NCBI GenBank assembly: GCA_012845835.1
Contig: JABAKD010000007.1
Coordinates: 4,975,358-5,039,357, forward strand
Direction of reading: 5' to 3'
Source: Undaria pinnatifida
Taxonomy: Eukaryota > Sar > Phaeophyceae > Laminariales > Alariaceae
Length of the DNA: 64,000 nt
Below are positions 35,701 through 38,700 of the stretch, one piece after another. Every line of letters starts with the position of its first letter. Position 1 is the stretch's first letter. A program made the translations under genes and the position numbers. The notes below the pieces were generated by a model. The model was not told the DNA's origin. It saw only the letters and a program-made list of their open reading frames with translations, and ran no database searches.

Positions 35701-38700
35701 CGGGAAGGGATTCTTCGCGACAACGTTTCTCACGTGAGGGGTGGAAGGTTTTGGTTGTGTCGGTGTCCGTGTCTGTGTTGTGTTGATTTGGGTTTCTCTT
35801 TAGCGTTTTTTTTTTTGTTTTGTTTTTTTTTAGGTTTGGTTTTGGGTTTGATTTTGGGTTTGACTTTGGGTTTTATTTCGGGTTTGATTTTGGGTTTGGG
35901 TTTTTGGGTTTCGGGCTTGGGATGGCTTTGTTTTTTGAGGTTTGCGTTTGAGGTTACAGGTGGGTTTGTGATGGGTTTTGTGTATGCGGGGTTTACGCTG
36001 GAGCCGCCTTGTGCTGCTGGACAATCTATTAACAATGCAATCTCTCTGTCGGAGGTGTATAGGGGTTCATCGCGACCACATTTCTTACCTGCGGTGTTCG
36101 ATTTTGGTTCGATTTTGGTTTCTTGTCTTGTTTTCGGGAGATGGTTTTGGTGTTGGTTTTGGCTTTGGGTTTGGTTTTGTTGCGGGGTTTGGGGAATGGT
36201 TTGGGTTTTCGTTTGGATTTGTTGGTTAGTTAGTTAGTTAGTTATTTAGTTGGTTAGTTATTTAGTTAGTTAGTTATTTAGTTAGTTAGTTTTTCTTTTT
36301 TTTTCAGCGCTTTGGTTTTCCCATGTGGGGTAGATGCTAGCTGCTGACCCCTGCCCCAAATACATCATTTCGATGCTGTCATCCATATTCAAGAAAGTGC
36401 GCGCAACATGCCGATGACCGTCTCGCAAGTGGTGCTTACTACGGTGCAGCTCACCATGCGACTCGCCGAACATCTCACGTCTCTCCCCGCTTGGTGCGCG
36501 CGATGTCTGCCTGGTTGGTGAAACCCAGACGTGCTCCGTCCCGAAATAGTAGGTTTAAGGTCAAATGTCAACAGCTTTGCATGAAAGCACACTCACCACC
36601 CCTTTGCTATGCCCCCCGTATTTCCATCCGTACGTGTGCCGGCGTTTCTCTGACTGCAATATACCTCACAGAACCCCCTCCCCCTATCTTATGGCCCTCG
36701 GGTTTCCGCCTCTTCGTGCACCGGCGTCTCTTTGCGCTCACACGCGTAAATAACCCGAATCTACCCCTCGAAATACCACCCCCCCCGCCCCCCTTTTGGT
36801 ATGGCCATCGGTTTATATCTGTACATGCACCGTCAATTTTCTACCCTCAGGAATACTTGTAGATACCCCCCCGTCTACCTTTGATATGGCCATCAGATTT
36901 CCCGATGTACGTGCACCGGCGTTTCTCTACGCTCAGGAGTACTGGTTGTCACCCACAGTATATCCCAATAACCCCCCCCCCCCCCCCCCCCCCCGCGCCT
37001 CCTTGAGCAATTCTACCTTGTTAGCGAAAACCTGACGTGCTCCATCCCGGCTTTGTAGGCGTGCGAGGGTGTGAGGCCTGACGTCTACCGCCTTGCATGA
37101 TCATGAGCACTGCGGCCCCCTCCCTTTGAAGGACTCCCGAGTTTCCTTTTGCACGTGCGACGATGTTTTTCTGTGCTCAGGAGTGATGCGATGGCCGCCA
37201 AGTAGTCTTCATTTTTCCTCGACTGCCACGCAATCATAGATTAGCGTAGTTTGAATAACAAAAAAAAAGTCAACCCTGCCCCCCCCCCTCCCCCTCTATG
37301 ACATGGCCCTCGCGTTACCAACTGTACGTAGAGCCGGCGTTTCTCTGTTGTCGGCAGTACTCGTAGATGACCACAGTATGTTCCTGCCCACCTCCGTGCT
37401 CCGTCTCGAGAGGGATGCTTGGCCAATGGTCATATTGTTAAGGCAAGAGATTCACGAGAACCCCAGAACGCCAAGATACTCATTCGAATCAACCATTTAC
37501 ATGCAAGAAAGCACGCACAAGGTGCGGAAGTCCGCCTCACGAGCGGCTCTCAGTGGAATGCAGCTCGCCGGTCATACATGCGACTCGCCGAACACTTCAC
37601 AACGCTTCGCGCTTGGGTCATGCGACTCGACCAACGCCGCAGCTCTTCGCGCTTGGCACACGTAGTATCTGCCTGGTCGGGTGAAAATTCGACGTGCGTC
37701 GTCCCGGCGTTGTAGACATGCAAGGGTCTAATGTTTTACAACTACGGCTGTGCGTGAATTAAGTACGCCTGCCCCTCCCCTTCGTCATGCCCTCGGGCTA
37801 CCCTCTGAACGTGGCCCGGCGTTTCTTAATGGTCAGGACGGCTACGTTGGCCAACAACACTCCGCGAAATGTCCTTTTCCCATGACCGCCATTTTCTGGT
37901 AGACAACCAATATATACCACACCAAAAGACGCCCCCCCCCCTAAGACAAAGAGAAACGTGAGAAAGTTGAAATGGCAATATAGAGTAAAGAATATGCCAC
38001 AAAAGAGGTTGCCAGCCATAATTGATAGGGCTGTATGGGAGGAAATATCAAAGGGCGAGCTGGAATAAGATTGGATAACGTAGTCGACAAAATATGGAAG
38101 GATTATGGGGAGACCAGGAAGAGATACTGTTTATAGAGAAGTTTGGCGGGTACAAGACATAAGTAAAAGAAATAACAGAAGAGCAGAAAGGCAAGCGCTA
38201 AAAAGTAAGGTGAAAGTGGAGCAGTACTTAGAGATATACGGGGGGTTGAGGGAAGATATTGGAATGAAAGCATATCTGCACGGCCCAATGGACAACGCGA
38301 AAAAGCTGAAACTGCGATTTCGTTTAGGGAGCTTGGACCTACCAGAAAGAAGAAAGAGATATACCAGCAGTCAGGAGGAGGGGGACGTGGATACAAATAT
38401 GTGCCCGTGTGACACAACAATAGAGAGTAGGACTGACACAGTAGAAGAAGGTCAAATATACAAGGACGAGCGTGATGCGTTTGAAAAGATGATGAAATTA
38501 GACGTATGTGACATGGAAGAGTTTGGTACACTAGAGAGTAGCGATAAACTGATCGCTAACCTAGGAGATAGATGGTGGCCGCAGACGGCGAAACAGGACG
38601 GGAATAGAAATTTGTATGTAATATATGGAAGAAGCGTAATGAGCGCCCAAATGTTGGAGGTGTCCCCATTAGGAGTGAAGTAGGAACGGTGCTTCGTCTC

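Follow-up and report, generated by a model that had tools for sequence, protein, structure and literature searches.

A dead partial copy of exon 7 beside its parent in a methyltransferase-like gene of Undaria pinnatifida

Disabled copies of exons that lie near their parents have previously been described as pseudogenic exons (PsiE). In the figures given by Morais and Harrison (2009) for four mammals, PsiE occur in 0.4-1.0% of genes, at 1.3-2.0 per affected gene; over about 75% of them span at least half of the parent length, and 12-22% lie on the opposite strand (PMC2718932). A second arrangement, in which two duplications are parted by unduplicated DNA (DUP-NML-DUP), has been reported for 9 of 50 human PLP1 cases; breakpoint sequencing, as that report presents it, gave two direct duplications in 4 of the 9 and an inversion in 5 (PMC6902434). 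Here we describe dead copies of exons 6 and 7 (called 6' and 7') in 64,000 nucleotides of Undaria pinnatifida DNA, the whole stretch analysed and hereafter the window (contig JABAKD010000007.1, positions 4,975,358 to 5,039,357). Judged by its letters, 7' belongs to a known kind, the pseudogenic exons: it has homology to an exon close by in its own gene, and its frame is broken by stops and by indels of 1, 8 and 19 nt.

The host gene and its two dead exon copies

Exons are numbered as in the sequence-only reading that preceded this analysis. Exons 4-7, as joined here, encode 181 residues that match the Pfam family Methyltransf_11 at 1.2e-18. Six further methyltransferase families matched at E <= 0.001, two of them under the curated cut-off, and a comparison with solved structures returned 16 distinct chains, mostly named methyltransferases (best 3.5e-7). 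The host gene of exons 6 and 7 thus appears to be a split gene of methyltransferase type. With a plant homologue as query, the exon following exon 7 was not found and exons before exon 4 were likewise not located. Four frames of the window had no Pfam match, and a viral-contig scan gave five pattern matches, none of which was confirmed as a relative. The intron that separates exons 4 and 5 (27766-28691) has an apparent GC donor, CAG|GCAAGA, placed by eye from the frame and the plant homologue; immediately 5' of exon 4 lies a CCCCT-type array of about 1.6 kb (25964-27551). Exons 6 and 7 are both symmetric as read from the sequence. The parents and their copies are as follows.

30832-30930, plus strand: exon 6, 99 nt, phase 2-2
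32275-32371, plus strand: dead copy of exon 6 (6'), with AG and GT retained, the second codon a stop, and indels of +2 and -4 nt
35578-35733, plus strand: exon 7, 156 nt, phase 2-2, methyltransferase region with a peptide ending GFFATTFL, open frame, AG before and GT after
35987-36088, plus strand: dead partial copy of exon 7 (7'), corresponding to exon nt 43-156, with a 19-nt deletion, an 8-nt insertion, a 1-nt deletion, two stops and a lost donor
36089-36109, plus strand: brief stretch of the exon 7 copy that matches the beginning of intron 7, taking in the ruined donor

The sequence-only reading had noticed that the end of exon 7 and the start of intron 7 recur about 370 bases downstream, and this was borne out. 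The copy starts at an offset of 367 bp, and the local alignment of 35620-35756 with 35987-36109 scored 80, whereas 1000 dinucleotide shuffles gave a mean of 22.5 (sd 2.9) and a maximum of 38. The comparison of the region with itself that the reading had proposed showed the off-diagonal match: self-BLAST paired 35620-35886 with 35987-36221 at E = 3.2e-8, over a stretch that takes in low-complexity intron. In addition, the exon 7 peptide recovered the copy from the window at E = 1.8e-4.

The exonic part of 7' differs from its parent at 20 of 94 aligned positions. Its large deletion, previously given as 17 bases, is 19 nt long in the alignment (parent 35686-35704), with AGGG read at both edges; it is accompanied by an 8-nt insertion at 36029-36036 and a separate 1-nt deletion. 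Read in the parental frame, the copy contains two stops. The donor is indeed lost, as had been claimed, AC|GTGAGG in exon 7 having become ACCTGCGG in the copy, without the GT. Differences are concentrated at third codon positions (11/31 versus 9/63 elsewhere, p = 0.03), which is weak evidence, since silent changes of the parent itself add to such an excess.

Neither the acceptor nor the opening 42 nt of exon 7 has a visible counterpart: over the 100 nt that precede the copy, the best local score was 11. By comparison, an exon 7 5' end that was copied and equally decayed in simulation scored 20-59 (5-95% of 300 simulations), and shuffles did as well as the observed sequence in 931 of 1000 cases in global and 572 of 1000 in local alignment. 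Because of this missing part, 7' is a partial copy that was probably never spliceable or usable as an exon. Held against an alternative exon with intact acceptor, donor and open frame, it has no acceptor counterpart, no donor GT, and stops. On its other side, the intron 7 homology is short, with the alignment extending 23 nt past the exon. Farther into intron 7 lie GGTTTT-rich stretches, where the observed score was reached by 176 of 1000 shuffles (197 of 1000 when counted from the donor); such simple sequence blinds the flank test.

The alignment of 6' with exon 6 scored 110, where the best of 1000 shuffles reached 37. Its two indels sit near the 5' end, and its 21 differences over 95 positions are spread evenly over the codon positions (6/32, 8/32 and 7/31), the pattern of a copy on which selection never acted. 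The splice context reads AACAG|GT...ACAAG|GTGACC, with both dinucleotides kept despite the early stop; if ever spliced in, 6' would act as a poison exon.

Flanking traces and the background of local duplication

Matches between the introns around exon 6 and those around 6' are poor. The 225 nt upstream of 6' scored 26, slightly above shuffles (43 of 1000 as good), whereas copied flanks of this length, decayed on both sides, had a median of 75 in simulation and none of 300 came as low. A longer upstream pair was equalled by 495 of 1000 shuffles. With 100-nt flanks we observed 15 upstream and 18 downstream, compared to simulated ranges of 22-66 and 17-60; with 50-nt flanks, the scores were 12 and 10, compared to 13-39 and 11-37. 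The poor upstream match fits the 'exon-scale copying' of the sequence-only reading. Downstream, one weak match was found.

32580-32641, plus strand: faint match, in register, to 31143-31203 of the intron that follows exon 6, possibly a downstream remainder of the exon 6 duplication

It lies 210-270 bp downstream of the exon, at an offset of 1437-1438 compared to 1441 at the exon end, that is, within 4 bp. Shuffles were as good in 14 of 1000 cases (8/1000 and 19/1000 in other tests). Its score of 33 is below the simulated median of 71, and 3% of simulations were as low. This trace would point, faintly, to a duplicated block that ran into the intron.

A possible third fragment was seen on the other side of exon 7.

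35325-35380, plus strand: possible fragment of exon 7 (acceptor and 5' end) that lies 222 bp before the parent, with AAGGTGCGATGT exact

Only 6 of 1000 shuffles were as good. Under other settings the figures were 14, 33 and 36 of 1000 with a C-rich stretch included and 13, 29 and 51 without it, the figure of 29 belonging to a different, out-of-register alignment. For a 63-nt query this is the top place of the window (36, next 31), but for a 40-nt query it is not (26 versus 28 elsewhere). The remainder of exon 7 was not seen there (557, 791 and 454 of 1000 shuffles as good). The fragment may be real, yet it is suggestive only and not unusual here, because 64 of 600 random 63-nt segments scored as well within 400 bp in direct orientation (6 of 600 inverted; 92 and 3 with tandem arrays unmasked).

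Direct local copies are frequent in this DNA. BLAST pairs within 2 kb at E <= 1e-6 numbered 51 direct and 2 inverted and covered 13,029 of the 64,000 bases; overlapping pairs, repeats and tandem arrays are included in these counts, and inverted pairs only above 50 bp spacing. We then asked how often random segments have a direct neighbour within 1.5 kb that scores like the exon copies (at least 92 for 99 nt, at least 68 for 156 nt). With repeats, arrays and the exon copies masked, this was so for 32/600 segments of 99 nt and 71/600 of 156 nt, at 7 and 14 separate places, respectively, compared to 0/600 and 3/600 for inverted neighbours. With tandem arrays unmasked and dispersed repeats excluded, the counts were 33/600 and 98/600 direct and 0/600 and 7/600 inverted. 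Since the random segments overlap one another, the figures describe a rate per length of sequence rather than a number of events. At the measured rates, the chance of at least two hits among four exons is 1.6% to 7.1%. Two copied exons out of four is therefore uncommon, not extraordinary, and needs no special exon-copying process. Moreover, a conserved parent would make an exonic copy easier to spot than an intronic one.

In the stretches tested, we found no local copy of exon 4 (102/500 and 473/500 shuffles as good) or exon 5 (179/500 and 343/500), and neither exon 6 nor exon 7 had any additional copy. A stretch in the intron after exon 5 (29621-29644), whose eight residues resemble the beginning of exon 5 (VARFFLGT for VERFFLGT) at E = 0.59, was rejected as an exon 5 copy; it was not significant, with 15/500 and 90/500 shuffles as good at the chosen place under two scorings, and 170/500 and 213/500 when all 2 kb were considered.

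Several larger repeats were also observed in the window. Downstream of exon 7, 37482-38763 and 40788-42063 form a large direct duplication (73% over 1341 columns), and 37482-42855 also holds several copies of a repeat that we call R. Another repeat, L (31204-31706, 38265-38763 and 41562-42065), resembles by eye the 3' end of a LINE; a frame across its second copy had no Pfam match. A dispersed element of about 270 bp occurs at 30131-30387, 33450-33712, 12137-12405 and 60526-60794; at 33450 it has two 27-nt end arms that are 81% complementary, MITE-like. A further direct duplication, 17822-18907 and 21913-23016, is 1.1 kb long, with 72% identity, its two parts lying 4.1 kb apart.

History of the two copies

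Each dead copy follows its own parent, and the resulting order 6, 6', 7, 7' is not one that a single tandem block can produce, as had been pointed out. It had also been argued that independent duplications or repeated exon-scale copying are needed. Two local duplications do suffice, but the near-equal divergence of the copies (21/95 and 20/94) does not speak for independence, and the background above calls for no special process. Likewise, the proposal to date the copies by divergence from their parents could be followed for both, but did not separate them in age (Fisher p = 1.0).

We consider it probable that two short local direct duplications took place and that each copy then decayed. The homology, the disablements and divergence, the missing exon 7 5' end, the lack of additional exon 6 and 7 copies in the stretches tested, the faint in-register trace downstream of 6' and the excess of direct over inverted local copies in the window all favour this history. 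The pseudogenic exon 7' would be what is left of a short, local, direct (tandem-type) duplication that began, at its left breakpoint, about 42 nt into exon 7 and continued into intron 7. Born without an acceptor, the copy would afterwards have gathered substitutions and an 8-nt insertion, and would have lost 19 nt between short repeats as well as its donor. For 6', a comparable duplication may be responsible, its left breakpoint lying close to the exon 6 acceptor. For each copy we infer a contiguous tandem duplication, with 7' dead from birth and two events in all. Both copies would fit blocks that extend downstream from the exon's 5' edge or from a point just within it, but the intron evidence is thin. 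Some observations sit less easily with this. Upstream of 6', the intron match is far below that of a copied flank and counts against a contiguous duplication; either the breakpoint fell at the acceptor by chance, or the copying kept to the boundary of the exon. The trace downstream of 6' is likewise weaker than in simulation, and two hits among four exons have a chance of just 1.6% to 7.1% at the measured background. Nor is a third-position excess like that of 7' expected for a copy dead from birth, unless silent changes of the parent cause it.

Both duplications could have been made at once, by one complex rearrangement with template switching that left unduplicated DNA between them and was followed by decay. 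The equal divergence from the parents agrees with such an event, and the DUP-NML-DUP array of the PLP1 cases is a precedent. However, the age match is loose, with a standard error of about 0.04 for each copy, and direct local duplications are in any case frequent in this DNA; we regard a single event as unlikely. That 6' and 7' were once working alternative exons, mutually exclusive or tandemly included, is more doubtful still. The parents are symmetric (99 and 156 nt), so extra copies keep the frame, 6' retains its AG and GT, there is little intron homology upstream of 6', and the third-position excess in 7' would be in line with past selection. Against this, the differences in 6' are about equal over the codon positions, and 7' is missing its acceptor and opening 42 nt. 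The upstream fragment allows another reading, in which pieces of exon 7 lie on both its sides, the 5' end 222 bp upstream and the 3' part 367 bp downstream, as from a full copy written into an exon break. We hold this to be very improbable. If true, a working exon 7 would sit inside a split dead one and, together with exon 6, the gene would show repeated, repair-linked self-copying at exons.

Two rounds of duplication of a larger block of exons 6 and 7, giving three copies, followed by losses, can also yield the order 6, 6', 7, 7', but require more events and should have left relics. No exon 7 piece was found between 6 and 6' (475/500 shuffles as good), and no exon 6 piece between 7 and 7' (141/500). 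We therefore give this history very little weight. No more than that can be said for a mobile element that carried exon pieces. Repeats L and R do occur near both copies, with R copies starting some 415 bp downstream of 6' and some 260 bp downstream of 7'; yet the two intervals that lead from a dead exon to R do not resemble each other (177/500 shuffles as good), nor do the two stretches before the dead exons (288/500), and the other R and L copies of the window had no exon 6 or 7 pieces in the scans made. A retrocopy of spliced mRNA, with neighbouring exons joined, is disfavoured: 6' and 7' are about 3.6 kb apart, 6' has no exon 7 piece on either side (475/500 and 403/500 shuffles as good), and no exon 6 piece was found between 7 and 7' or beyond 7' (141/500 and 414/500). 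An assembly artefact, in favour of which nothing was found, is the hardest to credit, as divergence of about 21% with private indels would be unlike a duplicated read or a second haplotype.

On the two-duplication history, short direct duplications of a sort that is common in the region can account for the unusual alternation of live and dead exons. The copies 6' and 7' are decayed relics beside constrained parents, a small example of local duplication making, and then burying, spare exons. The exon 7 copy is an ordinary relic of local DNA duplication and opens no new mechanism.

Comparison with described systems

The closest likeness is to the PsiE. Like these, 6' and 7' are disabled exon copies near their parents; two per gene is within the mammalian range given in the survey, and both copies span at least half of the parent length. 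The survey is mammalian, however, and some of its copies lie on the opposite strand, whereas 6' and 7' are both direct (PMC2718932). Tandem exon duplications and unannotated duplicated exons share with this locus the local duplication of an exon within a gene. In the account given of them, those exons are candidates for alternative splicing with RNA support, in contrast to 7', for which no acceptor was found and which has no donor (PMC9013439). The DUP-NML-DUP arrays resemble this locus in having two duplications parted by unduplicated DNA, but as described they are large human disease rearrangements, and a single event is only a candidate reading for 6' and 7' (PMC6902434). Finally, the shuffling of LRR exons reported in ROCO genes of brown algae is similar in that exon-sized duplication occurs repeatedly in one gene; the exons in that report are repeats of one module, whereas here single, non-repeat exons gave rise to dead copies (PMC11378527).
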